A stretch of DNA of 39,534 nt from a virus. The stretch lies in IMG/VR virus record IMGVR_UViG_3300015371_000093, positions 1-39,534 of that record. One strand, given 5' to 3'. The notes beneath the pieces were generated by a model. It was given only the letters and a program-made list of their open reading frames with translations, did no database searches and was not told the DNA's origin. Made by a program: the position numbers and the translations under genes. Shown one piece after another: positions 3,945 through 19,167 of the stretch; within the stretch, counting starts at the first letter, position 1; each line of letters starts with the position of its first letter.

Positions 3945-3987
3945 AAAAAATAGAAGCAAGGTAGGGGGAGGTATCTTCTATCTTCTA
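3945..3987 (-). promoter_or_regulatory. Leader hairpin with T-run (putative attenuator) before nuclease/RNA polymerase operon
   Basis: On the minus strand the leader reads ATAGAAG, 18 bases, CTTCTAT, then a run of T, and 18 bases later the start codon of the VRR-NUC gene. A 7-base-pair stem (3950-3956 with 3975-3981) followed by a T-run resembles an intrinsic terminator placed between promoter H and the first gene. An alternative 5' arm exists at 3982-3987. The same elements recur in the leader at 17884-17949. The stem is AT-rich, so termination strength is uncertain. Confidence 0.5.
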
Positions 3988-4012
3988 TTACAATGTGCGT
4001 TTTTAGTGCGAG
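3987..4012 (-). promoter_or_regulatory. Promoter H (TCGCA-N14-TGTAAT)
   Basis: On the minus strand CTCGCA (4007-4012) is separated by 14 bases from TGTAAT (3987-3992), followed by AGAAGA. It precedes the nuclease/RNA polymerase operon. Unlike the other copies it also has TTGACT overlapping the upstream box (18 bases from TGTAAT), so a conventional sigma-70 -35 element could be present here. Confidence 0.6.
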
Positions 4013-4026
4013 TCAATATCTACTTT

Positions 4027-4515
4027 CTAATGGACCTCGAAAATCTGATACGTGGGCCACGCATACGTCATCAGCTCGATGGACTTGACCACGTCAGACT
4101 CCAACAATCCATAGCGACACGCGGCCTCGAAAGAATTCGGAAAGAGTTCCTCGGTGTCCACGCAGTAGACAGGGTCATCGATGCGGAACAGCGGCGCCGA
4201 TTTGAACTGTCGGTTGTATCGACGAGCGAACCACCTTGGCCGCCACATCAAATTGTCAGCTCGACAGTCTGCCCGATCCCCATTCAGGTTTATCGGCGTG
4301 TCAAAGGTGTCTACGTCTTTCTTGATGAAAGCGCTTGCCACCAGAAGCGGGAGCGAACGATTGACCTGGACACCGTTTCGCATCAAGCCAACGTACACAC
4401 CCCCGTACTGATTCATCCTTGGATGGATGATGTGATCGTGAGTGTCATACCGGACTCGACCAAGATCACTCACGCTATGCTTAGGGAAGCCCTTGATCCG
4501 GGCCCAGTCTTCCAC
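4027..4515 (-). CDS. NUMOD4/HNH-like protein, probably catalytically degenerate
   Basis: A 162-residue protein. Residues 1-25 match the NUMOD4 DNA-binding motif (W-x-x-I-x-GFP, SDLGRVR). The middle resembles an HNH homing endonuclease core (LVASAF, then NLNGD, then CRADNLMW), but the expected histidines of the HR-LVA and NHIDG positions are replaced (L and NL), so the nuclease centre looks lost. The C-terminus (about 115-145) resembles a NUMOD1-type helix-turn-helix. The start is GTG with AAGGAG upstream. It sits alone between the helicase gene and promoter H, in the most AT-rich part of the window, flanked by near-identical 15-base words (4017-4031 and 4580-4594). It may be a decayed homing nuclease or one turned into a DNA-binding regulator. 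Confidence 0.75.
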   Translation of the reverse strand: MEDWARIKGFPKHSVSDLGRVRYDTHDHIIHPRMNQYGGVYVGLMRNGVQVNRSLPLLVASAFIKKDVDTFDTPINLNGDRADCRADNLMWRPRWFARRYNRQFKSAPLFRIDDPVYCVDTEELFPNSFEAACRYGLLESDVVKSIELMTYAWPTYQIFEVH

Positions 4516-4534
4516 GATTTCTCCTTCTCCTCGA

Positions 4535-4644
4535 TTACACAGTTACGGTCGCAACTCTTTTATAATTTTTCATTTAGTATATCTACTTTGTAATAGATAT
4601 TGAGTTCGCGATATAAAAAGGGTTTTGACCCGTAACTGTGTAAT
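4535..4644. repeat. 15-bp perfect inverted repeat enclosing an AT-rich intergenic segment
   Basis: ATTACACAGTTACGG at 4535-4549 is the exact reverse complement of 4630-4644, with 80 bases between. Inside lies a second perfect dyad, ATATCTA/TAGATAT (4579-4585 and 4594-4600, 8-base loop). The arms flank the gap between the helicase and HNH-like genes. They could be paired operators, a large RNA stem in front of the HNH-like ribosome site, or part of a replication origin next to the helicase. I cannot choose between these. Confidence 0.75.
4615..4631 (-). terminator. Short intrinsic terminator after the helicase gene
   Basis: The minus strand reads GGGTCAAAACCC followed by TTTTT and TATA, a small stem with a T-run, 25 to 41 bases past the helicase stop codon. 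The stem is only 4 to 5 pairs, so it may be weak. Confidence 0.45.
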
Positions 4645-4655
4645 TTTAGGGTTTT

Positions 4656-5879
4656 TTAGCCGTTTTTTGGCTTGTTCTCGTCGGGAAACACTCCGGCAGG
4701 CAGGAACACGCTCCCGTGCTTGTGCTCGTTGAAATTCTGCTTCTTCTTCAACGCAGCCCACACTGCGGAGTCAATCGGGGCCTTACTGCGTAATGCGTAG
4801 TAGTACAAATCGCGGTGGAGAGTGTTCAAACGATCGATCCTGCCGTGCGCCTGATGCCACAGTTTGTACGAATATGTCAGGCTCCAAAACGCCATCGTAT
4901 CCGTAGTGGTGCACTCCCATCCTTCGGCCCCTGCCAGGTACTGAACTACATACAGCCACCTCTCGCTGTCTGGGATCTCTTCATGCTTCTGGCCGTTCCA
5001 CTCCGCAAGGGCAGTGCTGTCTTGCTCAAGACGGGGTTGCAGTGCCCTAATCAAATCCAACTCGTAGTTGAAGTTGTAGAAGAGAATGACCCTCTTGTGC
5101 TTCTTGAGAATCTCGAGAAGATGCTTCCCTCTTGATGGGTCACTGTTGACCACCTTACGCATGACCATGAAGAACTCAGCCGAGTTCTTGATCGGTTCGT
5201 TGGTGTACGGATTCCAACGCGCCTTAGTCACCTCTGACAGCTTGCCCAGATCGTAGTCGCACCAGACGTTGATGGGGTGTCTCTTCGTCTCGTACTCATA
5301 CGGCATCTTGACCAGAATCTGGTGACGGTACTTCACCAGACGTTGGACGTTGACGTAGCGGGATATGACTGGGTAGTTCATGAACGGCTTGTAGATCACG
5401 TGCTCGCTTTTGAAATGCGTTCGGTTCCGGTAGAAACCGTTGGCGATGAACACCGGCACGTAATCCATCCACGTGTCACCCGGCGTTGCCGACAGCATGA
5501 TCCAGTGATTCGCCTTCGCGATCTTGAGGAAGTTCTTCACCCACTTGCCATCTCCGACCAGTCGCTGCTCGTCGAAAATGAAGAAGCATCCTCTTAGTGC
5601 GATGTACTTGTGCAGGTTGTTCCAGCTGTCCACGATGAGCGTACCGTGAGCAGTGGCATCCGGCGTCTTGCCGATGGTCCACTGGGCTGCCTCGCGCTCC
5701 CAGTCCTTGGAATCGCGCTTCTTGGCAGTTGTGATGACGATGATCTGCTTGGGTGATTCCTTCGCGACGTAATATGCCAACGCCGTCATGGACTTACCCG
5801 AGCCTACGCCTCCCCAGAGGATGCAGCCGTTATGCATCTTAGGCAGCACTTTCTGCTGATGCTCTCTTAGCTTTGGCAT
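4656..5879 (-). CDS. SNF2-like superfamily 2 DNA helicase
   Basis: A 407-residue protein with SF2 motifs in order: HQQ near residue 7, Walker A GGVGSGKS (23-30), FIFDEQR as the DEAD-like motif II near 104, LSATPGDTW as motif III near 130, a second RecA domain with VILFYNF, motif V AGAEGW, and motif VI QAHGRIDRL with the arginine finger. The length is typical for compact phage SNF2-like helicases, which remodel or unwind DNA during replication or recombination using ATP. The start is ATG with AGGAGG. A terminator-like hairpin with a T-run ends only 18 bases upstream of the start and I see no promoter between, so expression seems to need read-through from promoter A. The motif II variant DEQR instead of DEAH/DEAD is seen in related phage proteins. 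Confidence 0.9.
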   Translation of the reverse strand: MPKLREHQQKVLPKMHNGCILWGGVGSGKSMTALAYYVAKESPKQIIVITTAKKRDSKDWEREAAQWTIGKTPDATAHGTLIVDSWNNLHKYIALRGCFFIFDEQRLVGDGKWVKNFLKIAKANHWIMLSATPGDTWMDYVPVFIANGFYRNRTHFKSEHVIYKPFMNYPVISRYVNVQRLVKYRHQILVKMPYEYETKRHPINVWCDYDLGKLSEVTKARWNPYTNEPIKNSAEFFMVMRKVVNSDPSRGKHLLEILKKHKRVILFYNFNYELDLIRALQPRLEQDSTALAEWNGQKHEEIPDSERWLYVVQYLAGAEGWECTTTDTMAFWSLTYSYKLWHQAHGRIDRLNTLHRDLYYYALRSKAPIDSAVWAALKKKQNFNEHKHGSVFLPAGVFPDENKPKNG

Positions 5880-5896
5880 GATCCTCCTTTCTGAAG

Positions 5897-5923
5897 AAAA
5901 AAAGAGAACCCGTGTGGATTCTC
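5897..5923 (-). terminator. Intrinsic terminator just upstream of the helicase gene
   Basis: The minus strand reads GAGAATCC, ACAC, GGGTTCTC and seven T. The 8-bp stem with one wobble is near-identical to hairpins at 14192-14215 and 18480-18499. It ends the 67-residue gene and lies 18 bases before the helicase start codon. Confidence 0.85.
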
Positions 5924-5936
5924 TTTCAGATTGGTA

Positions 5937-6140
5937 CTAGTTGAGCGATGCCTGCTGGTACATCTTGATGTCGACGTCAGCTTCGATCTCGTCGAGCTTC
6001 TCGATGGAAGCGAGCAGGATCGGCATCTGGAAGACGTTTGGTTCGTCGTCTAGCAGTTGCCTGATTCGGGCTCGGTTGTAATCGATCTTCTCGAGGGTCT
6101 GGGTGAACTGAATCAACAGTGCGATGTGCGGGTTGGGCAT
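5937..6140 (-). CDS. Small protein of unknown function (67 aa)
   Basis: I place the start at ATG 6140, which has AAGGAG 5 bases upstream, rather than at longer upstream candidates that would run into promoter A. The protein is largely helical and charged (MPNPHIALLIQFTQTLEKIDY at the start, then IEKLDEIEADVDIKMYQQ), soluble, with no recognised domain. It is the first gene after promoter A and is closed by a strong hairpin terminator, giving the same promoter-small gene-terminator layout as the cassettes at 18-19 kb. I do not recognise the family. Confidence 0.75.
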   Translation of the reverse strand: MPNPHIALLIQFTQTLEKIDYNRARIRQLLDDEPNVFQMPILLASIEKLDEIEADVDIKMYQQASLN

Positions 6141-6151
6141 GAAAACTCCTT

Positions 6152-6190
6152 GTAGTAGGTCTCTACTACAGTCGATGTATCGCTTGCGAG
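6152..6190 (-). promoter_or_regulatory. Promoter A with perfect dyad over the -10
   Basis: CTCGCA (6185-6190), 14 bases, TGTAGT (6165-6170), then AGAGACCTACTAC. Here the -10 and downstream leader make a perfect dyad, GTAGTAG-4-CTACTAC, which would suit an operator. The 67-residue gene starts 12 bases later. Confidence 0.65.
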
Positions 6191-6197
6191 GGAGCAT

Positions 6198-6236
6198 CCC
6201 CCTGAGCCACCGCGTAGCGTGCGATGACCCAGGGGG
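6198..6236 (-). ncRNA. Structured stem-loop of unknown role
   Basis: On minus-strand RNA, 6225-6236 pairs with 6198-6209 over 12 positions. Two G-U wobbles occur on this strand, which become A-C mismatches on the opposite strand, and a 15-base loop separates the arms. The strand-specific pairing suggests the structure matters as RNA. It lies between the 112-residue gene and promoter A. I do not recognise a known RNA family and it is not a tRNA. Confidence 0.4.
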
Positions 6237-6252
6237 TTAGAGACCTACTACT
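6237..6252. promoter_or_regulatory. Isolated operator-like copy of the TAGAGACCTACTACT element
   Basis: TAGAGACCTACTACT occurs here on the plus strand, the reverse orientation of the copies downstream of promoters A-E, and without a convincing -10 beside it. It may be a stand-alone binding site for whatever protein reads the dyad, or it may pair with the leader of promoter A. Confidence 0.45.
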
Positions 6253-6254
6253 CC

Positions 6255-6274
6255 CTTGCCCGTGTCGGGGCAAG
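6255..6274 (-). terminator. GC-rich hairpin after the 112-residue gene
   Basis: CTTGCCC, 6 bases, GGGCAAG forms a perfect 7-bp stem 7 bases after the stop codon at 6281. No T-run follows, so it may be a weak or factor-dependent terminator, or an mRNA end stabiliser. Confidence 0.4.
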
Positions 6275-6280
6275 CTTGTA

Positions 6281-6619
6281 CTACAGGGTGGCGTTCTCAG
6301 GAGCCGTCATGACCGACTCCGGTGCCTCCTCGAACGAGTTGAAGAACGCCTTCTCGGTGTAGACCTTGTAGCCGCGGTCGGTGTAGAGGAGCCAGTCCCC
6401 CACCCGCAGCTGCGTCTGCCGAGGGTTCTTCGGATTGTGGACACGCACCCGGATGTACGACGAGGAGGGATCCACCTTGACGTTGGTCTGGAGCGCGTCG
6501 GTCTCGAGCAGTCGGATCTCACCCTGGCACCACCCCGCCACCTCGACGAAGTTGTCCGGGGTGATCTTCACCGCATCGACGAAGAGTGGCTTTCTGATGT
6601 AGCGCTTGGTCTGGATCAT
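6281..6619 (-). CDS. Conserved phage protein of unknown function (112 aa)
   Basis: The start is ATG 6619, which overlaps the stop of the preceding gene (ATGA); a GTG two codons upstream is possible. The protein begins with a basic segment (IQTKRYIRKPLFVDAV), then VAGWCQG, then RQTQLRVGDWLLY and YTEKAFFNSFE. I recall this pattern from small soluble proteins found in many siphophages, without known function. It is the last gene of the polymerase operon and is followed by a hairpin. No catalytic motif is visible. Confidence 0.78.
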   Translation of the reverse strand: MIQTKRYIRKPLFVDAVKITPDNFVEVAGWCQGEIRLLETDALQTNVKVDPSSSYIRVRVHNPKNPRQTQLRVGDWLLYTDRGYKVYTEKAFFNSFEEAPESVMTAPENATL

Positions 6620-6726
6620 TTGCACTTTCGGTTGGTCTTGACGTGGTAGTAGATGCTGCCGAGGATGAGGGCGATGGCCCAGATCGTGAGGATCCAGGCC
6701 ACCACCGTCATGATGGTTTTATCCAT
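6616..6726 (-). CDS. Small membrane protein (36 aa)
   Basis: The start is ATG 6726 with GGGACGG just upstream. The protein is almost entirely one membrane helix (TVVAWILTIWAIALILGSIYY) followed by a short basic tail (HVKTNRKCK), predicting a single-pass inner membrane peptide with the tail in the cytoplasm. It overlaps the next gene by 4 bases and lies 11 bases after the previous stop. It is one of many tiny membrane proteins in this genome; no function is known. Confidence 0.65.
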   Translation of the reverse strand: MDKTIMTVVAWILTIWAIALILGSIYYHVKTNRKCK

Positions 6727-6737
6727 AGCCGTCCCGA

Positions 6738-6875
6738 CTACAGCCCCTGGTTGCGCTTCTCTTCTTCGACCTTGTCGATGAACCCCTGCGTGCCCCACAG
6801 CTTGTAGGCGCAGGCGGCACCGACGGCCACGGCCGAGGAGAAACCGGCGAGATAGCCGACGAGAAAGCGGCTCAC
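6738..6875 (-). CDS. Small membrane protein (45 aa)
   Basis: A GTG start at 6875 overlaps the stop of the upstream gene (GTGA) and has GGAG 5 bases before it. The N-terminal half is a glycine/alanine-rich membrane helix (FLVGYLAGFSSAVAVGAACAY), followed by a charged amphipathic tail (GFIDKVEEEKRNQGL). The helix resembles the glycine-rich N-terminal helix of the 250-residue protein at 11631-12383. No function can be assigned. Confidence 0.65.
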   Translation of the reverse strand: MSRFLVGYLAGFSSAVAVGAACAYKLWGTQGFIDKVEEEKRNQGL

Positions 6876-7351
6876 GACTGCTCCTCCATCTCGGCCAGCT
6901 CGCGCTCGAGCTCGTCCTCCTCGATCCACACGTGCATGGTCTTGAGGTAGGCCTTGACGCCGGACTTGCCGTTGACCGTCCAGGTGTACGGGTTGACGAT
7001 CATGTTGATCTTCGTGATGTCGACCCAGTCGAGCTGCTTGATGGTCTCCTCGTCGAGGTTCTTCCGACCGTGGTCGGTGATGAGGACGACGGTGGGCGGG
7101 CGACCCTTGTCGTAGGCCGCTTCGACAGGCAGCCACGGCGTGGCCTCCGTTCCCTCCTCCTTGTCCTCCTCCCTCGGCTCCAACAGCTTGATGTTCCAGC
7201 CGTCGTTGGCCATGGCCTCAGCGTCGCCAGGCTGAAGCACGACTCCGAAGTTGCGGGTCCCTGCCTTGTTGTACGGACCCTCCTTCCCCTCGAAGTTGCG
7301 GAAGATGATCCGTGCGTCACGGATGGTGACACTACCCAGCTGATCGCTCAC
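6872..7351 (-). CDS. Conserved replication-associated protein, possibly ssDNA-binding (159 aa)
   Basis: A GTG start at 7351 overlaps the polymerase stop (GTGA) with AAAGGAG 5 bases upstream. The N-terminal part has ARIIFRNFEGKEG and YNKAGTRNFGVVL; the C-terminal part has DWVDITKINMIVNPYTW and GVKAYLKTM, ending in a very acidic tail (residues about 142-157), as in many ssDNA-binding proteins. I recall this as a widespread phage family located next to replication genes; the binding role is inference from position, size and the acidic tail. Translational coupling to the polymerase gene fits a replisome partner. Confidence 0.72.
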   Translation of the reverse strand: MSDQLGSVTIRDARIIFRNFEGKEGPYNKAGTRNFGVVLQPGDAEAMANDGWNIKLLEPREEDKEEGTEATPWLPVEAAYDKGRPPTVVLITDHGRKNLDEETIKQLDWVDITKINMIVNPYTWTVNGKSGVKAYLKTMHVWIEEDELERELAEMEEQS

Positions 7352-10300
7352 TTGGGCTCCTTTATGAATTCGTCGAAGGATCCGAACTTCTCGATTGTCT
7401 CGAGAGCCTCGTCCTTCAGCTTGTCGAAATAGGTCATGTCGATGTCGTTGCCGTCGTCCATGCTTTCCCAGACGATGGCCTCCATCCACATGTGACCCTT
7501 GGTACGCGACACGGCGTAGTACTTACCGTCGTAGACGCGGTACAGCTTGCCGCCACCGTCGACCACTGGGACGAACTGTCCCGTCTTGCCGATATGGCGC
7601 ATCTTGGTGACGTCGGGCTCGTCGCTCTCGCTCATGTCGAGATACATAGCCCCCTTGACCACGGTGCGTGCCTCGTAGAAGTCCTCCGGCACGATGGCCT
7701 CTTTGGAGAACAGAGTCTTGAAGACGTACGGGTGCTGGAACTGCGCACCCACTGCCTTCCACACGTAGCCCGGGAACTCATCTTCCCAGGGGACCGCGAC
7801 GTTGCCGCCCACGTAGACGGCGTCGTTGACCAGAACGAACTTCTCGTAGAACGCGTCCTGCTCGAACTCGTACCCGTACTGCTGACCGAACTCCTTGATC
7901 TGCTGGACCATCTTGCCAGAGATATCCACCAGCTTGATGGAGTCGGTCTTGATGTGAATGACCTTCACACCTTGTTCCTGCAGCCAGTGCTTCAGATCGA
8001 TCATGAACAGAGCGCCGCGCTTGGCGACGATGTTGTCCCGGTTCCGAATATCCCGGAACGGGTTGTCGAACTTGGCACTGGTCAGGCCGTACACCGTGTT
8101 GATCACGATCTTCAGGGCGTAGGCAAGCTGATCCGCGCTGTCCTCTTCTGTCAAATATGGTGCCAGTCGAGCGCCCATCATGTTCCGGGCCTTCTCGAAG
8201 TCACCTTGCTTGATGGCAACGCGTGCTTCCTTGAGGTCTGAGAAGTTCTTTGTGTATGGACCGAATAGGTTCAGAGCCTCAATGCTGGCGGGGTGCATGG
8301 ATATGACATCCAGCTCCACCACCTTCTCGTACATCCCTGGTTCTGCGTAGACGTAGCCACCCTCAGACGGGTCTTCGCCCTTGTAGGACGACTTACCCAA
8401 CTCGAAGGTGTAGCCCGGGAACTGCTCGGACAGATCCGTGTACACGAAATCCTTCTGCGGCTTCTTCTCCTCGCCGAAGATGATCCGTGCTGTGTGGTTC
8501 TGGGTAGTGTCGTTGACCGTCAAACCCGAGAGCTCCGCCAGGATCTGACGTGCGATGAAGTCTCCCTTGCGGTCGAGGAACACTTCTTCGGTTGCCCGGA
8601 CATCGTTGGCGCAGTACTCCACCACCTGATCGATCATGTCCTCTGGGACATCCTGGTCCCACGGAATATCGAGCTCCATGTGCAGGATCCCGAGATCGAC
8701 CTCCCACTTCTTGAGCGACTTCTTCTCTGACGCGAAGTCCCAGATGTCGGCGTAGGAGAGGTTGTATGCGGCGCCGTACCCTGCGCCACGGTTCCCTTCC
8801 ACCAACCGCTGAGACAGCTTGAACAGCTCGGGGGCGGATGCCCCCATTGAGGCCGCGTAGAGAATGTGGTTGTCGTAGCGGCGGTTGTAGAAACCCACCA
8901 GCTTCAACTTGAACAACGCCTCGACGTCAGACGCCTTCGGGTTGACCATCTTCACCACGTCCTTCGACCCTAGGTACTTCCAGCAGATGACGAACAGGTT
9001 GGGGTAGACCTCAACGTCGTAGAAGGCGATCTCGCCCTCCGGCTCTGCTTCCTTCGCTCCCGGCAGTTCCTCGTGATCGTCCGAATTGAACTTCATTCGG
9101 GAAACCGCCTTGAGGGCGGCATCGCTTTGGTTCGAGGAGTTCACTGCGAAGGCCGTGATGCGTGACCGCATGTCCCTCAGGTCGTAGGTCATACCTGATT
9201 CGTAGGCCTCCTCGAGAATCTTCTCGATGAAGTCGATCGACGGCTTGGTGCCGGGATGGATCTCCTTCTTGAGATTCCGCTCGACGAGCTCTCTGAGTCC
9301 CTTTTCGGATTTGATGACCTTGGCCTTATGCATCTTCTCCTTCTTCTCTTTTAGCGGTAGGCCGCTACTTATCTCCGAAACGGGCACTGCGTTGCATTTC
9401 GACAACCGACGGCGCAGGGCAGCGCCCCCCCGGTACACCTTGATTTCAATTCCATCAGAGTACTCAGTGGCAAGCTGCGATGAATCTCCACTGTAGGTGT
9501 AATGTAGATGTACACCGGACCCTGATTTACTGATCTCTGCGTAGGTGGGGGGCCATTTGGCAGCCGCTTCGAGATTTCGGTCAAGTGCCTTCTCCCCATT
9601 CTGTCGCTTCAGGTCGAAGTCGATCACGATATGCGACTCCTCCACCTTTACATAGTGGAGTTTGTGCGAGTCAATATCTGCTAGTTTGGTGCGAACACTC
9701 CCCCAGCGCTTTTGCGGAGTGCCATCCTCCTTTGCGTACTGCGCAGGAGAATTAGCCAGGAGCTCATCGAGCAGGGACTTCTTCTCTTCCAGCACGAGAG
9801 AATATGTGCCCTCTTCCAACTCCTTGGGCTCCTTGTACTTCTCTGCCTTGAAGCCCATGTAGATCGAGCGGTAGCGAGTACCGTCGATCATCTTCTCGAT
9901 GTGGAACTCTTGGAAGTAGTTCTCGAGTTCCGCCCGCATCTTGTGGCGCTGCAGAGGACGATTGATTCCTGTGTCCTCGCAGAACGCCTTGTACAGCTTG
10001 TACGCCTGGTCCAGCGTGACGAAGTCCTGTGACTCGAATATGTCGTAATGCGCTTCTACGAAGTTGAAGAAAGGATCCGTCTGGAACATCATCTCGGTAG
10101 GGCGGTAATGCTGGTAGTACGACCGACCCATCTCGAGATATCGCTGGTGACAGTGGTACGCGATGGCTCCCAGCTGCTTACCAACCGCAGCCATGAGAGC
10201 ATCGTACTTCTTGGGCCCGAACCTCACCCCAGTGGGATGAATATCCATCAGTCGGCGAAGCAGACCCGACTTGGCGTCTGAGATCCTCACCGGCTGGTTG

Positions 10301-11638: not shown

Positions 11639-12383
11639 CGTCGAAGCGGACCCTCTTTCTCCTTCGCGCCGACTCGTCAGCGTGCTCGAGCCCGAGGACT
11701 TCCTGGTCATACCGGCCCTCGGATCGGGTGATCTCGAACTCCATGCCGAGCTTGACGTTCCGGATATAGACCAGGTTCGGATCGTTGGATCCGTGCCCGA
11801 ACTTGTCCAGGTTCTCCAGCCCGACCGTCTGGTTCACTTCGGTGACTGGCTGTTCCCGAGCGTCCACGAGGACTTCGTCCCCCTCGTAGTACGTCCATGA
11901 CACGCACTCGATCTCGGGGAACTCCTCGATCTCGTCGACGTGGATGACGTACGGAATCTCGGGCGAGCGGAACTTCACCTCCGACTCGTAGTCCCACTCC
12001 TCGACGACCGTCTCCGCGTGCTCCTCGAAGACGTTCTGTTGCACGACCTCGGCGATTGCCTCGCCTTCTTGGTCGCTGACCGGAATGATCGTCTCCTTCG
12101 CAGGAATCGGAGGAGGCACGTAGCCCTGCTCTTGCACGATGGCTTCGAGCTTGGGCTTCTCCTGCCGAGCGATCTCCTTGCTGCGGTAGTGCTCGCGCAT
12201 CTCGTTAACCTCGGCCTCGATGATGGCGTCCATCTTCAGACGCATCTTCTTCTCGAGGTACACGTACGCGACGGCACCGCCGATGGCAGCACCAGCGACC
12301 AAGCCCATCCCGAAGGACCGGCTTGAGAACGCCAGCTTGATGACCTCCTCGGTGGCCTCAGCGGCCTCGACCAGTTCGGCCAT
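11631..12383 (-). CDS. Membrane-anchored acidic protein of unknown function (250 aa)
   Basis: The start is ATG 12383, overlapping the previous stop by one base (TGATG). A glycine-rich membrane helix (residues about 22-43, GMGLVAGAAIGGAVAYVYLE) is followed by a charged helical stalk (about 44-85), a proline-containing acidic linker, and a C-terminal domain beginning near 155 (VSWTYYEGDEVLVD, then VGLENLDKFG, VYIRNVKLGMEFEI, EVLG). The topology suggests a short N-terminus and a large cytoplasmic or periplasmic domain. It sits next to the 312-residue paralogue of the 16010-16780 protein and may form a membrane complex with it. The function is unknown. Confidence 0.78.
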   Translation of the reverse strand: MAELVEAAEATEEVIKLAFSSRSFGMGLVAGAAIGGAVAYVYLEKKMRLKMDAIIEAEVNEMREHYRSKEIARQEKPKLEAIVQEQGYVPPPIPAKETIIPVSDQEGEAIAEVVQQNVFEEHAETVVEEWDYESEVKFRSPEIPYVIHVDEIEEFPEIECVSWTYYEGDEVLVDAREQPVTEVNQTVGLENLDKFGHGSNDPNLVYIRNVKLGMEFEITRSEGRYDQEVLGLEHADESARRRKRVRFDDE

Positions 12384-13321
12384 CAGTTGCTCCCCCCTTG
12401 CAGGCGCTTCATGTCATCGTTCTCGCCCTCGCCGAGGATGAACTCAATGGGACCGTCGACGTTGAAGTCGAGAAGGATTGACCCCTCCCGGCCGTTGACG
12501 AAGTCTCGGGCCTTGGGATTCCCTCCATCCCAGATCCCGAAGTCGATGAAGCCGTCGCTGTTGGGTCCATCCAGGACCCAGCCGACGACCTGCCCAGCTC
12601 GACTCCTCTCCAGCCCGAGGGCGTCGTAGACGTCGTTCAGGAACAGGTAGCCCTTCGCCTGGAGCTTCTCGTTGGCGTAGTTCTGCTGACACCTGAGGAA
12701 CGTGAGGTTGTACTCGGGATTGCGCTGCCAGCAGTCGGCCAATTCGTCGAAGAATCGCGCATACTGCGAGGGCGCCTCCCAGGGAACGGTGGTCGCCTTG
12801 ACCATTTTTCCCTTTTCCTCGTCCCACACCTCCCGCTCCTCCGAGCCGTACCGCAGCTCGCGGTCCTCGTCCTCGCCGTACTTCTCGATGACGCGTCCCC
12901 GGTACTGCTGGAACGCGGAGTCCACTGCCACATATGCGGCAGCGAGTGCTTCGTTCCTCGTCTGGAGGATGTTCTTGCCCTTGGCGAGACAGGCGATGCC
13001 CACGGCACCCACCACGATGGCCGGGCCGTACAGCTTGAGGATCTTGCCCGTGGTGCGGACGATGATGACGACGCGGTCCTGCTGACGATCTTCCTCCGAG
13101 TACTTCTCGGGGACGTCCTCACGGACGGTGTTGGCCATGTCGAGATCCGACTTGGCCTCGTCGAGGACGGCTTCCAGCTTGAGGGTGGCGCGGCACGCCA
13201 GGACGGTTGACCCGACCATGCTGACGACGCCCGCCCCGAACAGCAGAGAAGGCGCGTTCTTGCTGGCCTGCAGGCCAACTTCCGCAACCTTTCTACTGAT
13301 CGCGGTGGGAATAAGACTCAT
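12383..13321 (-). CDS. Membrane-anchored phage protein, DUF6353-like, paralogue 1 (312 aa)
   Basis: The start is ATG with AGGAGA 5 bases upstream. After an amphipathic N-terminal helix the segment NAPSLLFGAGVV begins a membrane helix (about 22-45), followed by a charged coil, a second membrane helix (about 97-115, KLYGPAIVVGAVGIACL), and a soluble C-terminal domain with YLFLNDVYDALGL, VGWV and LLDFNVDGPI. The gene at 16010-16780 shares the NAP-LL-G-GVV membrane helix, the domain order and the DFNV C-terminal motif, so the two are paralogues. I associate the family with actinophage proteins called DUF6353, but could not search. The role is unknown; it is membrane-bound by sequence. Confidence 0.75.
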   Translation of the reverse strand: MSLIPTAISRKVAEVGLQASKNAPSLLFGAGVVSMVGSTVLACRATLKLEAVLDEAKSDLDMANTVREDVPEKYSEEDRQQDRVVIIVRTTGKILKLYGPAIVVGAVGIACLAKGKNILQTRNEALAAAYVAVDSAFQQYRGRVIEKYGEDEDRELRYGSEEREVWDEEKGKMVKATTVPWEAPSQYARFFDELADCWQRNPEYNLTFLRCQQNYANEKLQAKGYLFLNDVYDALGLERSRAGQVVGWVLDGPNSDGFIDFGIWDGGNPKARDFVNGREGSILLDFNVDGPIEFILGEGENDDMKRLQGGSN

Positions 13322-14215: not shown

Positions 14216-14222
14216 CCTTGGA

Positions 14223-14489
14223 CTACTCGGTCTCCTGCTTGGAAAGCTTCTTCTCGCGACGGGCGGTGCGAATGGCGCTGAAGGTGTTGGCGACTCGGTC
14301 GACACCTCGGTCGGTGAGCGGCTTCAGCTTCCAGGCGACGACGATGCCGACCACGGTGGTCCCGACGCTGACGCTGGTGGCGTCAGTATCGATGTCCGTG
14401 GTGGCCTCGAGGGCGTGGTTGGAAGCGGAAGTCACTGCGACGGAGGTGGCGCCGAAGGCGACATCCTTAGCGAGTTCACGCTTGGTCAT
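14223..14489 (-). CDS. Small membrane protein (88 aa)
   Basis: ATG start with AGGAG 8 bases upstream, directly after promoter B, and closed by a hairpin terminator. The N-terminal part is Ser/Thr/Ala rich with a weakly hydrophobic stretch (VAFGATSVAVTSASNHALEA). A clear membrane helix follows at about 37-54 (ATSVSVGTTVVGIVVAW), then a basic helical tail (RTARREKKLSKQETE). The Thr/Asp-rich section between the helices (TTDIDTDATS) is unusual. Function unknown. Its layout repeats that of the single-gene cassettes at 18-19 kb. Confidence 0.75.
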   Translation of the reverse strand: MTKRELAKDVAFGATSVAVTSASNHALEATTDIDTDATSVSVGTTVVGIVVAWKLKPLTDRGVDRVANTFSAIRTARREKKLSKQETE

Positions 14490-14513: not shown

Positions 14514-14553
14514 TGTAGTAGGTCTCTATTATAAGCGTTGTATTTTGTGCGAG
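14514..14553 (-). promoter_or_regulatory. Promoter B (CTCGCA-N14-TATAAT)
   Basis: CTCGCA (14548-14553), 14 bases, TATAAT (14528-14533), then AGAGACCTACTAC and the ribosome site of the 88-residue gene. Read-through past the 14185-14215 hairpin would transcribe the polymerase operon. Confidence 0.68.
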
Positions 14554-14571: not shown

Positions 14572-14596
14572 AAGGGCTATGCGCACCCCAGCCCTT
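14572..14596 (-). terminator. Hairpin at the end of the membrane-protein operon
   Basis: AAGGGCT, 11 bases, AGCCCTT gives a perfect 7-bp stem right after the stop codon of the 208-residue gene. It is followed by GACAAAA rather than a T-run, so its efficiency as a terminator is doubtful. Confidence 0.4.
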
Positions 14597-14599
14597 CTG

Positions 14600-15226: not shown

Positions 15227-15540
15227 TAGATGGGCTCCTGGTCGTGGGGCATGGGTCGGTACTGCTCTTCGGATATGGGCTTCGAGAGATCCTCGAGCCG
15301 CCCTCCGACAGGGGTGACGCCGATCCAGAAGTCATCCAGTTCGGCGACATGATCGGTTGGTTCCCTCGGGAGACCGCTTGGGGCGAGGGGCTTCTCAGGA
15401 AGGGTCTTGGAGTACACAACCCATCCCGTTTTTTGGTTGACGAAGACGACCGCGTCGACCTCAATGAGAAGTCGTGCACGGTCGTCCTCGATCATCCAGA
15501 CCCATCGCGTCCTCGCAGTCGGAAGACGCAGAGTCGGCAC
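15226..15540 (-). CDS. Protein of unknown function (104 aa)
   Basis: The GTG start at 15540 overlaps the upstream stop (TAGTG). Its ribosome site is weak, so an internal ATG 15 codons later (15495) is an alternative. The N-terminus is basic with aromatic residues (RTRWVWMIEDDRARLLIEVDAVVFV), then comes a beta-rich stretch (NQKTGWVVYSKTL) and a proline-rich acidic C-terminus. There is no membrane segment or recognised motif. It lies inside the membrane-protein operon and ends one base into the next gene. Confidence 0.65.
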   Translation of the reverse strand: MPTLRLPTARTRWVWMIEDDRARLLIEVDAVVFVNQKTGWVVYSKTLPEKPLAPSGLPREPTDHVAELDDFWIGVTPVGGRLEDLSKPISEEQYRPMPHDQEPI

Positions 15541-15809
15541 TACGCGATCGACTCGCGGTGCCCCTCGTTCGGGGTGTCGGTGTTGTCGGCCTTGGCCTTC
15601 GTGGCCAGGTACAGGCCGCGGAGCCGGTTGACGGCGAGCGTGGCGCCGACGCCGACGGCCAGGATCAGCACGTTCTGCCCGTTGACCTTCTTGACGAGCT
15701 CCGAGACGCCGACCTTCGTGGTCTCCTCGACGACGACCTTGGCGACCTTCGGGGACTTCGCGGCGGCCTTGCCTGCCTGCTTCGCAGCAGCGGTGTTGGT
15801 GGTGGCCAT
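15540..15809 (-). CDS. Membrane protein with Ala/Lys-rich N-terminus (89 aa)
   Basis: I prefer ATG 15809 with AAGGAG 11 bases upstream over a GTG three codons earlier that lies only two bases from the ribosome site. An Ala/Lys-rich N-terminal tail (AAAKQAGKAAAKSPKVAKV) resembles histone-like or DNA-associated tails. It is followed by a membrane helix (about 48-65, GQNVLILAVGVGATLAVN) and a short polar C-terminus. A nucleoid-like tail tethered to the membrane is a possible reading. Function unknown. Confidence 0.68.
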   Translation of the reverse strand: MATTNTAAAKQAGKAAAKSPKVAKVVVEETTKVGVSELVKKVNGQNVLILAVGVGATLAVNRLRGLYLATKAKADNTDTPNEGHRESIA

Positions 15810-15814
15810 GAATA

Positions 15815-16009
15815 TCACTTCTCCTTGTTCTTTTTAGGCGGATTATTCTTCAGGAATGCCTGTAGATCCGCTTCGATGATCTTGCTGTTCTCGACCAGCT
15901 CACGCTTCGCGTCGGCCTGCTTCTCCTTGACGTCCAGAATGATCTTGGTGACGGCTTCGGGGTGACACAGCAAGATGCCAACCCCGACGCCGGTGAGAAA
16001 CCGGAACAT
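15815..16009 (-). CDS. Small membrane-associated protein (64 aa)
   Basis: ATG start immediately next to the stop of the upstream DUF6353-like gene. A short hydrophobic N-terminus (MFRFLTGVGVGILLCH) is followed by a highly charged helix (KEKQADAKRELVENSKIIEADLQ) and a lysine-rich end (NNPPKKNKEK). It looks like a membrane-anchored coiled coil. Function unknown; it is translationally linked to its neighbours. Confidence 0.68.
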   Translation of the reverse strand: MFRFLTGVGVGILLCHPEAVTKIILDVKEKQADAKRELVENSKIIEADLQAFLKNNPPKKNKEK

Positions 16010-16780
16010 CTACCAGATCCGGTTGTAGTCCGTCTTGGGCCCCACGTTGAAGTCGATCGCGATGCAGGGCTTGTCGTCCGGAGTGAACTCCGTCGTGTAC
16101 CTGATCTCGATCGGCGCGTGGTTGGTGTTCCAGCCCACTTCGTCCGAGAATCCCGTCTGCTCGATCCCGATGTCCTCGTAGAACTGGGTCAAGCTGACGT
16201 AGTCGTGGTGGAAGATCTCCGCGTTGAGCTTGTTCTCGGCCTTCTTGATCCGCTCCATGCTGCTGCGGAAGTACCTCGCGGAATATGCGTCGTAGCACAT
16301 CACGTCGCCTTCTGCGAGGACGATGTTCGCGTAGCCGCCGTTCTTCTTGAGAAGTTGGGCCTGCGTTGCGTCCTGCACCTTCTGTTCCTTGGTGATGCCC
16401 ATCTGCTTGGCGACCTGCTCGCGGTATTCCTTGAACCGCTCGTCGGTCAGTCCGTACAGCGTGGCCATCGCAGCCACCTGGGAAGAGCTCACCCGATGTG
16501 CCGCCACGATGGACGTGATGGTGAGCAAGCCCGTCCCAGCGGCAGGCAGGAACAGAGGCCAAGCGAGCTTGACCTTGTCGAGGGAATCGAGTCCCCCGAG
16601 TCCGTCCTGTTCCAAACGGACCTTACGCTCCTCAGCGTCGACCAGCTTGGCTGCTTTGAACGCTCCGCGAGCGGCGAGGATGCCAGTACCTGCGGTTCCG
16701 ACGACACCGACCCCTGTGAGTAGAGCCGGGGCATTGGTCTTTAGGAAATGAGCGCCCGTACGGGCGAGATCTTGGAACAA
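16010..16780 (-). CDS. Membrane-anchored phage protein, DUF6353-like, paralogue 2 (256 aa)
   Basis: I chose a TTG start at 16780 because GAGAGG lies 5 bases upstream and the resulting N-terminus matches the paralogue at 12383-13321; an ATG at 16858 would add 26 residues overlapping the upstream gene. A short amphipathic helix leads to NAPALLTGVGVVGTAGTGILAA (first membrane helix), a charged coil, a second hydrophobic segment (about 73-95, LFLPAAGTGLLTITSIVAAH), a helical region, and a C-terminal domain with YVSLTQFYEDIGIEQTG, VGWN and AIDFNVG. The shared motifs with the 312-residue protein show duplication. The membrane location is seen; the function is unknown. Confidence 0.75.
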   Translation of the reverse strand: MFQDLARTGAHFLKTNAPALLTGVGVVGTAGTGILAARGAFKAAKLVDAEERKVRLEQDGLGGLDSLDKVKLAWPLFLPAAGTGLLTITSIVAAHRVSSSQVAAMATLYGLTDERFKEYREQVAKQMGITKEQKVQDATQAQLLKKNGGYANIVLAEGDVMCYDAYSARYFRSSMERIKKAENKLNAEIFHHDYVSLTQFYEDIGIEQTGFSDEVGWNTNHAPIEIRYTTEFTPDDKPCIAIDFNVGPKTDYNRIW

Positions 16781-16802
16781 CGGAACCTCTCGATCTTGTT
16801 GG

Positions 16803-17132
16803 TTACTGACAGGCGTAGTACGGCGCAGAGCCGTCGGTGCTGATGTACTCCGATCCATCGTTGCCCTTCACCGCGAAGACGCGGTAGCAGTTCCCGGCAC
16901 CGCTCTTTCGAGCCAGGATTTCCACGCGCACGTAGTTGTTGTTGATGCGCTGGTACCAGCCCGTCGCCGATGGATACGACAGGCAGTTGTAGTTGCAGAA
17001 CGTCCGCCAGACGTGAGCCCGGGCGTAGTTCTGAGCGTTGGCGACGTGCAGATATGCCTCGGCCGACATGGCCTTGACGGCACCGAACGCCAAAGCGACG
17101 ATCAGCACGAGGCAAAACAGGATCTTCTTCAC
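16803..17132 (-). CDS. Secreted protein with signal peptide and four cysteines (109 aa)
   Basis: The GTG start at 17132 overlaps the upstream stop (GTGA) with GGAG about 10 bases before it. A typical signal peptide opens the protein: basic VKK, hydrophobic ILFCLVLIVALAFGAV, then a likely cleavage site after AMSA. The mature part (about 85 residues) is Tyr/Asn-rich and contains CNYNC, GNCYRVFAVKG and a terminal CQ, giving four cysteines that could form two disulphides outside the membrane. It is the only clearly exported soluble protein in the window. It might act in the cell envelope, for example against superinfection, but nothing in the sequence proves this. I do not recognise a family. Confidence 0.75.
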   Translation of the reverse strand: MKKILFCLVLIVALAFGAVKAMSAEAYLHVANAQNYARAHVWRTFCNYNCLSYPSATGWYQRINNNYVRVEILARKSGAGNCYRVFAVKGNDGSEYISTDGSAPYYACQ

Positions 17133-17365
17133 TTCTGATCTTCTCCTTCCCTCATCTTTCGTTTGAGGGCTTCGAGGGCTTGCTTCTCGGTGCCTTCTGC
17201 TGTCACGTAGGTCAGCTCGGCATCCGGGAAATGGACGTTCAGCAGCATCACGAAACGACGCTGCTCGTGCTTGTTCCTCCAGTGGTAGAGAAACAACGTG
17301 AGCCGTCCACTGATGATTCCGTAGACGGTGAAGATGAGGAGATCCAGCCAGAAAGAACCCGTCAT
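17129..17365 (-). CDS. Membrane protein (78 aa)
   Basis: ATG 17365 overlaps the preceding stop (ATGA). Residues 4-27 form a membrane helix (FWLDLLIFTVYGIISGRLTLFLYHW). A basic segment (RNKHEQRRF) follows, then a small soluble domain (FVMLLNVHFPDAELTYVTAEG) and a charged C-terminal helix (EKQALEALKRKMREGEDQK). The positive-inside rule suggests a cytoplasmic C-terminal domain. Function unknown; it is part of the overlapping membrane-protein operon. Confidence 0.7.
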   Translation of the reverse strand: MTGSFWLDLLIFTVYGIISGRLTLFLYHWRNKHEQRRFVMLLNVHFPDAELTYVTAEGTEKQALEALKRKMREGEDQK

Positions 17366-17502
17366 CGACGGCGCATCTCTCGGACGAAGATCCAGATGAG
17401 CCACAGCCCACCCGTGAGGAAGACCATGATGAGGTCTCCCAGAAAGCCCAGACAGCCGTAGGGCTTCCGGACCTTGACGGTGTTCTCGTAGACGACCTTC
17501 AC
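17362..17502 (-). CDS. Small membrane protein (46 aa)
   Basis: A GTG start at 17502 overlaps the upstream stop (GTGA) with AAAGG 6 bases before it. A basic N-terminus (VKVVYENTVKVRKPYG) precedes a membrane helix (CLGFLGDLIMVFLTGGLWLIWIF), and the protein ends in a basic cluster (VREMRRR). This looks like a small YqaE- or superinfection-type membrane peptide, but homology cannot be claimed from this alone. Function unknown. Confidence 0.68.
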   Translation of the reverse strand: MKVVYENTVKVRKPYGCLGFLGDLIMVFLTGGLWLIWIFVREMRRR

Positions 17503-17708
17503 TTCAAACCTTTCGCTGCGGCTTGGACGATGATGGTGAAGAACGCATCGGTTCCCACCTTGAAGAAATACAGTCCTGCGGCGAAGCAACCGATCTCCTT
17601 GACGAGATCAACCTTCTGCTCCGTGGTCAGCTTGGGCTCTTCGTCAAGGACGTCAAGCGGGTCCTTCGGCGTCTTCTCGAGGGAGACAACAACTTTGCGG
17701 TTCTTCAT
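17499..17708 (-). CDS. Small membrane protein (69 aa)
   Basis: ATG 17708 overlaps the upstream stop (ATGA), with AGGAG 4 bases before it. The N-terminal half is soluble and charged (KNRKVVVSLEKTPKDPLDVLDEEPK), then a helix (TEQKVDLVKEIGCF) leads into a hydrophobic segment (AAGLYFFKVGTDAFFTIIVQAAAKG). It is probably membrane-associated at the C-terminus. Function unknown. Confidence 0.7.
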   Translation of the reverse strand: MKNRKVVVSLEKTPKDPLDVLDEEPKLTTEQKVDLVKEIGCFAAGLYFFKVGTDAFFTIIVQAAAKGLK

Positions 17709-17854
17709 TTGACTCCTACTGCCGAAGGGTTGAATTTGAGCGCACGCTTCTCCGCCTGCTCCGGAGAGGTCGCTTTGACCATGATGGTCTTCTCTCCGCC
17801 ACCGCTGTAGATCAACGTGACGGGGTACGTCTGCTTCTTGGACTTCTGCTGCAC
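17705..17854 (-). CDS. Small protein, first gene of the membrane-protein operon (49 aa)
   Basis: The GTG start at 17854 has AAGGAG 9 bases upstream; longer starts would run into the leader hairpins. The protein is basic and soluble, with a beta-like segment (YPVTLIYSGGGEKTIMVKA) followed by a helix (SPEQAEKRALKF). This is a compact fold like other tiny phage proteins whose helix ends in a basic face. It is the first gene after promoter G and its structured leader. Function unknown. Confidence 0.7.
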   Translation of the reverse strand: MQQKSKKQTYPVTLIYSGGGEKTIMVKATSPEQAEKRALKFNPSAVGVK

Positions 17855-17883
17855 AGCTTGGAACTCCTTTATTAGGTGGGCAG

Positions 17884-17949
17884 AAAAAATAGAAGATGAG
17901 CAAACTCCGTAAGGAGGGCTCTGTACCAACATACGTTGGCACTCTTCTA
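17884..17949 (-). promoter_or_regulatory. Structured leader with T-run (putative attenuator) before the membrane-protein operon
   Basis: On the minus strand TAGAAGA (17943-17949) can pair with TCTTCTA (17890-17896), closing two inner hairpins (CCAAC/GTTGG and CTCC-TTAC-GGAG), followed by six T (17884-17889), then GCCCACC and, 20 bases later, the ribosome site. The closing arms and the T-run are nearly identical to the leader at 3945-3987, which serves an unrelated operon. Confidence 0.55.
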
Positions 17950-17974
17950 CTATAGGAAAGGTTTTTCTTGCGAG
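17949..17974 (-). promoter_or_regulatory. Promoter G (CTCGCA-N14-TATAGT)
   Basis: CTCGCA (17969-17974), 14 bases, TATAGT (17949-17954), then AGAAGAG. It heads the 49-residue gene and the operon of membrane proteins down to 14600. Confidence 0.62.
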
Positions 17975-17976
17975 GC

Positions 17977-18009
17977 AAAGCTTAGAGCCCATGTAGGGCT
18001 CCTTGCTTT
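17977..18009 (-). terminator. Hairpin at the end of the 75-residue gene
   Basis: GAGCCC, 5 bases, GGGCTC, with outer arms AAAGC/GCTTT, overlaps the stop codon of the 75-residue gene and lies just before promoter G. There is no long T-run, but the position fits a terminator. Confidence 0.5.
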
Positions 18010-18235
18010 AGAGATCGAGCTTCTCGGCGATGGTGGCTAGGGCGATGTTGTCGAATTCGTCCAGCTGAATTCCGGCATCGTCGATCTTCTGAGCCAGCAG
18101 TCGGATCACGTCGTGGTCCGCATCGACAACCTGCGCGAGGGCGCGGTTCTTCTGGCGGAGCTGACGGTTCTGATGGTGGAGCAGAGCGTTCGAGATGGCG
18201 AAACAGCCAATACTGATTACGGCATTGATCGGCAT
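18008..18235 (-). CDS. Small membrane-anchored coiled-coil protein (75 aa)
   Basis: ATG start with AAAGG 5 bases upstream, behind promoter C. A short hydrophobic N-terminus (INAVISIGCFAISNALL) leads into a Gln/Arg-rich helix (HHQNRQLRQKNRALAQVV) and an acidic helix (RLLAQKIDDAGIQLDEF), ending NIALATIAEKLDL. This pattern suggests a membrane-tethered coiled coil. It is a single-gene cassette with its own promoter and end hairpin. Function unknown. Confidence 0.74.
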   Translation of the reverse strand: MPINAVISIGCFAISNALLHHQNRQLRQKNRALAQVVDADHDVIRLLAQKIDDAGIQLDEFDNIALATIAEKLDL

Positions 18236-18267
18236 AACGGCCTTTCGTTGAGGTGTAGTAGGTCTCT

Positions 18268-18293
18268 ATTACAGGCCATGTATTTCATGCGAA
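18268..18293 (-). promoter_or_regulatory. Promoter C (TTCGCA-N14-TGTAAT)
   Basis: TTCGCA (18288-18293), 14 bases containing TACATGG, TGTAAT (18268-18273), then AGAGACCTACTAC. It heads the 75-residue gene. Confidence 0.66.
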
Positions 18294-18318
18294 AAAAGAA
18301 AGGCAACGTCCTTGTTGC
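18292..18318 (-). terminator. Intrinsic terminator after the 26-residue gene
   Basis: GCAAC, 6 bases, GTTGC, then CTTTCTTTTTT on the minus strand. It ends the 26-residue gene cassette and abuts promoter C. Confidence 0.75.
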
Positions 18319-18344
18319 GATTCTTTTATGGAACCTGATGGGGG

Positions 18345-18425
18345 TTAGCTTGCAAAGTGCGCAAGGATCACCGCGTTGTGCGTCCAGAGGACGAGGTTGG
18401 CGGCGACAACTGCGAGGTTGAACAT
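18345..18425 (-). CDS. Very small hydrophobic peptide (26 aa)
   Basis: ATG 18425 with AAGGAG 4 bases upstream and TAA at 18345. The peptide (MFNLAVVAANLVLWTHNAV, then ILAHFAS) is one membrane-length hydrophobic stretch with almost no charge. It has its own promoter F upstream and an intrinsic terminator downstream, which argues that this tiny frame is a real gene even though it is below usual length limits. An alternative is that the transcript itself is the product. Function unknown. Confidence 0.6.
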   Translation of the reverse strand: MFNLAVVAANLVLWTHNAVILAHFAS

Positions 18426-18447
18426 GGTTCTCCTTGGTTGTGGGTTC

Positions 18448-18473
18448 TATATAGACCATGTAAACCGTGCGAG
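18448..18473 (-). promoter_or_regulatory. Promoter F (CTCGCA-N14-TATATA)
   Basis: CTCGCA (18468-18473), 14 bases containing TACATGG, TATATA (18448-18453), then GAACC. It lacks the AGAGACCTACTA leader of its neighbours. It heads the 26-residue gene. Confidence 0.58.
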
Positions 18474-18507
18474 AAAAAAGAGAATCCGTGTGGATTCTCC
18501 CTTTTTT
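18474..18507. terminator. Bidirectional intrinsic terminator after the 57-residue gene
   Basis: GAGAATCC, 4 bases, GGATTCTC is a perfect 8-bp stem (18480-18499) with TTTTTT on the minus strand (18474-18479) and CCCTTTTTT on the plus strand (up to 18507), so it can act in both directions. Confidence 0.85.
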
Positions 18508-18519
18508 GAAGTCTTGTAC

Positions 18520-18693
18520 TTACGGGATGTAAGGGCCGATCTTCTTCTGGCTCTTCCGGATCTTGCGCTCGTACTTCCGCTCCTGGTGGTTCGTCTTGGT
18601 CTTCTCAATCTTGGCGATTGTGAGTTCCTTGACGAGCCACGCAGCAGTGGTCGTAGTAGCGACGATCGGGTCGGTGCTGAGGGTGATGGTCAT
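18520..18693 (-). CDS. Small basic protein (57 aa)
   Basis: ATG 18693 with AAGGAAAC close upstream, behind promoter D; TAA at 18520. The N-terminus is Thr/Ala-rich (TITLSTDPIVATTTTAAWLV), followed by a strongly basic helical C-terminus (KIEKTKTNHQERKYERKIRK, then SQKKIGPYIP). The charge suggests binding to nucleic acid, a ribosome or an acidic host partner; this is inference. It is a single-gene cassette with its own promoter and a strong terminator. Confidence 0.72.
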   Translation of the reverse strand: MTITLSTDPIVATTTTAAWLVKELTIAKIEKTKTNHQERKYERKIRKSQKKIGPYIP

Positions 18694-18719
18694 TTTGTTT
18701 CCTTTAGTAGTAGGTCTCT

Positions 18720-18745
18720 ATTATAGTGCATGTAAAACATGCGAG
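18720..18745 (-). promoter_or_regulatory. Promoter D (CTCGCA-N14-TATAAT)
   Basis: CTCGCA (18740-18745), 14 bases with the dyad GCATG-TTTTA-CATGC starting inside the upstream box, TATAAT (18720-18725), then AGAGACCTACTACT. It heads the 57-residue gene and is the best match to a bacterial -10 in the set. Confidence 0.7.
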
Positions 18746-18777
18746 TTTGCAGGACAAAAATATAATCCGTGAGCGGC

Positions 18778-18807
18778 GAAACCTAAACCCCGTGTATGGG
18801 GTCTAGG
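18778..18807 (-). terminator. Hairpin after the 93-residue gene
   Basis: CCTAGACCCC, 6 bases, GGGGTTTAGG: a 10-bp stem with one wobble, followed by TTTC. It closes the cassette of promoter E. Confidence 0.65.
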
Positions 18808-18836
18808 CTTCGACACTCTTGGAAGGTGGTGTCGTT

Positions 18837-19118
18837 CTACCGAACCTTGGTCAATAGGCCAAGAGCCTTGGTGGATATGACTCCGAGGTGCTCGGCGTTG
18901 ATGATCATCAGGATGCCGACGAGGTTGGCTCCAATCGTCGCTTTCGTGTTGGCACTGACAGGATCGGGAGTGTTGTCGTTCTCGATCTTGTGCAGTTCCT
19001 TCAGTCTGTCGAGGATCTTGCCATACTCGTCTGACGTCGGCTGATGGTCACCAAGCGCAAGCGCCAGGCGGTCGATCTCCCTTTGGGTTCTTGACTTGGG
19101 CTTTGGTTGGTTGAACAT
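18837..19118 (-). CDS. Small conserved-looking protein with C-terminal hydrophobic segment (93 aa)
   Basis: ATG start with AAAGGA 4 bases upstream, behind promoter E. The N-terminal two-thirds is charged and helical (RTQREIDRLALALGD, DEYGKILDRLKELHKIEND). It ends in a hydrophobic segment (TIGANLVGILMIINAEHLGVI) that could be a membrane helix, and a short basic tail. This tail-anchored layout resembles a frequent actinophage protein of unknown role. It is a single-gene cassette. Confidence 0.76.
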   Translation of the reverse strand: MFNQPKPKSRTQREIDRLALALGDHQPTSDEYGKILDRLKELHKIENDNTPDPVSANTKATIGANLVGILMIINAEHLGVISTKALGLLTKVR

Positions 19119-19141
19119 TACGTCCTTTCTAGTAGGTCTCT

Positions 19142-19167
19142 ATTACAAGCCATGTATGGCTTGCGAC
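19142..19167 (-). promoter_or_regulatory. Promoter E (GTCGCA-N14-TGTAAT)
   Basis: GTCGCA (19162-19167), 14 bases with the dyad AGCCAT-AC-ATGGCT, TGTAAT (19142-19147), then AGAGACCTACTA. It heads the 93-residue gene, immediately after the lysis block. Confidence 0.66.

Follow-up and report, generated by a model that had tools for sequence, protein, structure and literature searches.

A family of phage promoters in a 39,534-base virus genome, probably read by a YonO-like single-chain RNA polymerase

We analysed eight promoter-like sites on the minus strand of a 39,534-base virus record (IMG/VR IMGVR_UViG_3300015371_000093; this whole stretch is referred to below as the window). On the reading we favour, to which we assign a probability of roughly 0.75, these sites form a class of promoters specific to phages, and the enzyme that reads them is the YonO-like single-chain RNA polymerase encoded by the phage itself (RNAP; 400-3108, minus strand). 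Each promoter would consist of a TCGCA box at about -25, an ACA at about -14 and an AT-rich melting box (TATAAT and its variants) from -6 to -1, and the RNA would start at the (A)GAGACC or (A)GAAG that directly follows the melting box. Contacts to TCGCA and ACA would probably be made by helix-turn-helix domains of the polymerase, which on this proposal could do without a sigma factor. Promoters of this class would drive the small genes that lie between the tail module and the replication module as well as short, terminated non-coding RNAs (ncRNAs), and a special form with an attenuator-like hairpin would drive the polymerase operon itself, placing it under autogenous control.

The recognised genes of the window lie nearly all on the minus strand, running from structural genes through small genes, primase/polymerase, helicase and a nuclease operon to the 902-residue RNA-polymerase-like protein, which comes last; by gene order, the nearest named relatives are the Streptomyces phages Scap1 and RosaAsantewaa. 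An earlier sequence-only reading had claimed eight minus-strand sites in which TCGCA is followed after 14 bases by a -10-like hexamer, and all eight were found where it had placed them. The architecture TCGCA-N14-TRTART applies exactly to seven of these but not to the eighth (18448-18472), which reads TATATA. The window has seven exact matches to this pattern, all on the minus (coding) strand, whereas dinucleotide shuffles contain 0.01 on average and never more than 1. Six bases after the TCGCA box stands ACA or a one-base variant of it, and five of the eight sites have in common a longer block, TRTARTAGAGACCTACTA, which had been overlooked; the full motif, TCGCA-N6-ACA-N5-TATAAT-GAGACC, is longer than the one first described. 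A scan with a profile trained on other phages reported only the eight sites in the window, at 11.7-29.7 bits. Shuffled sequence gives this profile a top score of 6.4 bits on average and of 13.8 bits at most, a range which includes one of the eight sites (11.7 bits) and ends just below another (14.1 bits).

The sites had also been said to lie just upstream of a gene or leader, which is what we see: six of the eight sit 24-60 nt before an ATG with a Shine-Dalgarno-like sequence, the site at 18472 is about 23 nt from the ATG of a short frame, and that at 17973 stands ahead of a structured 64-nt leader or ncRNA. Numbering the sites along the window, copy 1 (3987-4011) reads TCGCA..ACG..TGTAAT, is of the AGAAG-start type, has a TAGATATTGAC element upstream and precedes the operon of VRR-Nuc, exonuclease and RNAP genes, while copy 2 (6165-6189) reads TGTAGT-AGAGACCTACTAC and has an ATG 25 nt away. 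Copies 3 (14528-14552, TATAAT-AGAGACCTACTAC), 5 (18268-18292, TGTAAT-AGAGACCTACTAC), 7 (18720-18744, TATAAT-AGAGACCTACTAC) and 8 (19142-19166, TGTAAT-AGAGACCTACTAG) precede the open reading frames 14223-14489, 18008-18235, 18520-18693 and 18837-19118, respectively. Copy 4 (17949-17973) reads TATAGT-AGAAGA with a predicted ncRNA downstream, and copy 6 (18448-18472), with TATATA-GAACCC, has the sole imperfect -10. The window's initial transcribed sequence, AGAGACCTACTAC, also has one promoterless copy in reverse, on the plus strand at about 6239 and some 50-60 bp upstream of copy 2; RNA reading through it could pair with the 5' end of a new transcript.

This motif is a widespread family and is not peculiar to the window phage. 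Pattern scans recovered this element from other virus contigs, frequently with many copies each, its carriers comprising Gordonia, Streptomyces, Arthrobacter, Curtobacterium, Rhodococcus, Lactococcus and Faecalibacterium phages together with dozens of metagenomic phages. Nearly every genome has between 3 and 31 copies, almost all on the coding strand, and a comparison of 41 genomes likewise placed nearly all sites on that strand. The consensus of 378 sites is TCGCA-RRAWWT-ACA-N-GGCC-TATAAT-GAGACCCC, in which the bases fixed in the search patterns are conserved by construction and the ACA is not among them. By profile scan, strong sites number 6 in Scap1, 6 in RosaAsantewaa, 12 in Tanis, 12 in Rima and 7 in Mudcat, all on the coding strand, and Lactococcus phage P078 has versions with a TTTTA box on its coding strand. 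Most sites in Scap1, RosaAsantewaa, Tanis and Rima score 28-49 bits, while shuffled sequence reaches about 14 bits at best and rarely more. In these named phages the sites fall mostly directly ahead of small genes, and the structural gene blocks yielded no strong site. The pattern CGC[AG]-N6-ACA-N5-T[N]T[TA]AT is present in nearly every one of 20 more distant genomes, which were reached through the polymerase. A repeat search of Faecalibacterium phage FP_oengus made without prior knowledge of the motif returned 12 copies of [AG]CGCG-AAAAAT-[AGT]CA-N5-CTTTAT-GGAAGG, and the profile about 15. For one contig (G109) the profile gave no clear motif in a 20-kb stretch, and a pattern scan found eight sites over the whole contig.

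The motif is confined to phages that encode a YonO-like polymerase, save one 107-kb contig with a single match. Considering motif-bearing contigs of at least 40 kb, since shorter ones cannot be judged for co-occurrence, 25 of 26 carry this polymerase family (phrog_4291), and the exception is that 107-kb contig. A search of 50,697 phage records with the consensus 43-mer matched 184 records at 1,077 places. Compared by organism counts and a spread of 60 rows, motif and polymerase are equal for Gordonia (55 and 55), Streptomyces (54 and 54) and Rhodococcus (4 and 4) phages, and for saliva phages too; motif counts fall below polymerase counts for Arthrobacter, Curtobacterium and Microbacterium phages, whose versions may be too diverged for blastn, as Mudcat's is. 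Bacterial genomes are essentially without the motif: across 84,980 bacterial and archaeal species, with one genome each, a 20-base pattern occurs in three contigs of 3-4 kb, two of which we take to be phage-like from their tail-protein reading frames, and the third, an insertion-sequence contig, presumably to be a chance match.

Another line of evidence is the position of RNA stems relative to the promoters. A subset of sites drives no gene but a short RNA with an intrinsic terminator at its end. Among 38 strong terminator stems near promoters, 15 have as their first base the very one that follows the -10-like box, and 8 more include that base, reaching three bases upstream of it; when promoter heads were swapped among sites as a control, stems began at the first post-box base 2.2 times on average and at most 7 times. 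Initiation of the sigma70 type takes place about 6-9 nt after the -10. A start about 7 nt after the box would leave the first six or seven post-box bases out of the RNA, yet the 5' arm of these stems holds them. The sequence-only reading had expected transcript 5' ends about 7 bases downstream of the -10, a claim with which the stems disagree, as they put the 5' end at, or close to, the base that directly follows the box; with the 5' end there, the refuting test proposed by that reading would reject a true promoter. We infer that transcription starts at the G or A directly after the -10-like box.

In the window, this geometry is seen in a predicted 64-nt structured ncRNA with an intrinsic terminator (17885-17948, minus strand), which directly follows promoter copy 4 and folds as a three-way junction. 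Its closing stem, AGAAGA/UCUUCU, starts at the first post-box base, and its minimum free energy is -26.1 kcal/mol (z = -5.9), with 0 of 200 shuffles as stable. It has no match in Rfam, and Rfam and tRNA scans of the window as a whole returned no match. A homologous promoter-adjacent ncRNA of 83-86 nt occurs in six genomes (L238:11163-11245, L367:11923-12007, L368:5613-5698, L369:8479-8562, L370:2690-2774 on the minus strand, and L373:894-977), with 13 compensated pairs, conserved loops CGAATGT and AGTTCGNNNCTC, and a closing stem that again begins at the first post-box base. Other short promoter-adjacent RNAs, in G010, G012, G032 and G060, contain repeated hairpins with the recurring loops ATTGCGA, AATGCTCGA, GGATTACCG and GGAGTGC, which are possibly protein-binding sites.

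The proposed reader is a polymerase of the two-barrel type. Its DxDxD motif (DFDGD at residue 519) has D519, D521 and D523 invariant, and an AlphaFold2 model (mean predicted local distance difference test score 80.6) matches in the PDB the folds of QDE-1 (6e-10), P74-26 gp62 (1e-6) and, weakly, phi14:2 gp66. Helix-turn-helix units lie at about residues 36-67, 94-113 and 867-901, and the second resembles sigma region 4. The GenBank record of ReqiPoco6 calls the polymerase of that phage a 'structural protein'. Directly downstream of the polymerase gene, in nine of nine phages compared (phages of Actinobacteria, Lactococcus and Faecalibacterium), is a gene for a small protein, phrog_4303 (68-397, minus strand, in the window), a possible accessory factor of the polymerase.

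The polymerase operon has its own version of the promoter. At most of about 40 loci, a special form is located about 900 nt upstream of the RNAP gene, with an extra conserved TAGATATTAAC-like element upstream of the TCGCA box that is absent from the other copies; AGAAGG replaces GAGACC, and the -10 usually follows the variant of the lineage. The window's counterpart is copy 1 (the site at 4011), whose position is conserved in relatives. It is directly followed by an attenuator-like hairpin and T-run (3943-3982, minus strand) with an 8-bp stem and then TTTTTT, for which the folding z-score is only -1.65 (37-nt stretch). This arrangement suggests autogenous control of the polymerase operon with attenuation.

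Several observations count against assigning the promoters to this polymerase. Common phage ancestry alone could tie the motif to the polymerase gene, and in most lineages the -10-like box does not depart at all from the sigma-A consensus TATAAT. When box bases were tested for covariation with polymerase residues across 59 genomes, helix-turn-helix columns were weakly enriched, and this for just one position of the box, base 5; Lactococcus P078, with a TTTTA box and the helix SPGSVTNYA, hints at such a link, and G048 does not. The closing stem of the six-genome ncRNA is nearly invariant, so its support for the start site comes from position and not from covariation. With the RNAP operon under the same promoter type, the first polymerase would have to come from a host promoter, from read-through or from the virion, none of which was identified. 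Finally, the genes behind the sites are non-structural and no site turned up ahead of a structural gene, unlike the late-gene transcription attributed to SPbeta YonO.

Host RNA polymerase with sigma-A, acting at ordinary early promoters with an unusual -35 region, would account for the exact TATAAT and for the placement of sites ahead of small early-looking genes, and papers on cluster DJ phages name the repeat a -10 sigma70 sequence (PMC9671010, PMC10868162). We nevertheless consider this explanation unlikely. The -10-like box varies in ways that do not fit it. Sigma-A strongly prefers A at -11, and A at -11 with T at -7 holds in many lineages but not throughout: T, G or C at -11 is the rule in RosaAsantewaa (TTAAAT), many Yotsuba sites (TTTAAT), G016 (TAGTAAT), G022 and G039 (TGTAAT at most sites), FP_oengus (CTTTAT) and half of the window sites (TGTAAT). 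In the 20 distant genomes base -11 is A in 62%, T in 24%, C in 8% and G in 6% of cases, and the following base is T in 90%. Nor was a -35 element found 16-18 bp above the -10, or an extended -10; TCGCA is conserved instead, at 14 bp, and the bases above it are merely T-rich. ACA and GAGACC are conserved besides, the motif is limited to phages with the YonO-like polymerase, and the terminator stems need an RNA that starts at the first post-box base. The CGC and the position of the ACA persist while the box drifts, and since scattered sites of one genome drift together, their reader is probably encoded by the phage. Sigma-A with odd spacing was set aside because of the -11 variants and the start geometry.

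A phage activator bound at TCGCA/ACA could instead redirect the host polymerase, as T4 MotA does at middle promoters, whose layout is approximated by a box near -30 (in sigma-A numbering) and TATAAT; the small conserved phrog_4303, always next after the polymerase gene, would be available for such a role. This too we judge improbable, as a start about 6-9 nt after the -10, typical of sigma70, conflicts with the stem geometry, variants exist without A at -11, phrog_4303 has no match to a Pfam DNA-binding domain, and no activator was identified. It is more doubtful still that the sites are regulatory operators and not promoters (repressor sites or start-associated sequences, as in some mycobacteriophages). 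In the window, TGTARTAG-AGAC-CTACTACA forms a nearly palindromic block across the -10, and the promoterless plus-strand copy of AGAGACCTACTAC at 6239 would suit an operator; but the relatives have no dyad, carrying GAGACCCC after TATAAT in its place, and the motif is strictly oriented and upstream of start codons, with some copies followed by ncRNAs with terminators. A repressor operator or dyad over the -10 was set aside as a feature of the window only. The earlier view that these sites look like promoters, but not standard sigma-A ones, is supported by the non-sigma -10 variants and the start geometry, and its suggestion that the phage RNA-polymerase-like protein could be their reader is now, with co-occurrence added to these two, the best candidate explanation. 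The observation behind it is confirmed and extended, and the interpretation is partly supported.

Known systems resemble the proposed one in part. T7 promoters have a TATA box directly before the GGGAGA transcript start, and T7-type promoters share with those described here a compact, sigma-free form in which a melting box precedes a G-starting transcript (TATA-GGGAGA, compared with TATAAT-GAGACC); however, the T7 polymerase is a right-hand enzyme unrelated to the two-barrel type, and the specificity boxes here are further upstream. SPbeta YonO is itself a single-chain two-barrel phage RNA polymerase and transcribes late genes from one promoter, the sequence of which was described as still to be determined, with the requirement for a partner left open (PMC5467207). 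Both it and the window polymerase would be single-chain two-barrel enzymes transcribing phage genes, but YonO serves one late operon and gave no helix-turn-helix match in a Pfam search, whereas the window type has many promoter copies before non-structural genes. The 60-90 kb stretch of SPbeta has no match to the motif, and a TATAATGGG site upstream of yonK could not be aligned with the start position given in the literature and was not used. The P23-45 polymerase nvRNAP gp64 has a GC-rich promoter motif (PMC10770324); like the window enzyme, it and P74-26 gp62 are two-barrel single-chain phage polymerases with a promoter motif of their own, but that motif is GC-rich and less conserved, unlike the bipartite window type with its AT-rich box at the putative start, and these polymerase families are distant from the phrog_4291 type. 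In cluster DJ Gordonia phages, a repeat of 50 bp in Vardy and 43 bp in Conley has been read as a sigma70 -10 promoter (PMC9671010, PMC10868162). Conley and Vardy carry phrog_4291-type polymerases and Vardy the consensus motif, and the repeat is almost certainly the same element; as published, it belongs to a single cluster, without a link to a polymerase, a wider family or a start site, and we found no paper in the open-access literature that ties it to the polymerase.

Some further observations concern the regions around the promoters. Four Scap1 promoters (L209; at 23101, 23396, 23769 and 26839) fall within the annotated genes gp27, gp28, gp29 and gp36, directly before a better-placed ATG, and the annotated starts are therefore probably too early. 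Some promoter copies in Lactococcus P078, FP_oengus and a relative have tRNA-like sequences downstream (L215 at 19488, L216 at 2909, and L363, which is G089). The small-gene region of the window encodes two paralogous DUF6353 (phrog_2152) proteins (12383-13321 and 16010-16858, minus strand).

More broadly, we lean towards a sigma-free, self-sufficient system built on a single-chain crab-claw RNA polymerase that, through fused sigma-region-4-like helix-turn-helix domains, reads a bipartite promoter of TCGCA and ACA and starts at the edge of an AT-rich box. The system would be conserved between phages of Actinobacteria and of Firmicutes, activate itself and serve both mRNAs and a set of short structured phage ncRNAs not seen before. 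The motif supplies a precise and testable promoter sequence and start site for a large family of YonO relatives; the phages sequenced with such a polymerase number in the hundreds, and some of them, from Gordonia, Streptomyces and Arthrobacter, are laboratory phages. If the assignment is true, the sigma70 label in genome notes would be corrected, misplaced gene starts could be fixed, and a class of phage ncRNAs would be revealed along with a portable polymerase-promoter pair; a polymerase core of the cellular type would then be finding its promoters without a sigma factor.

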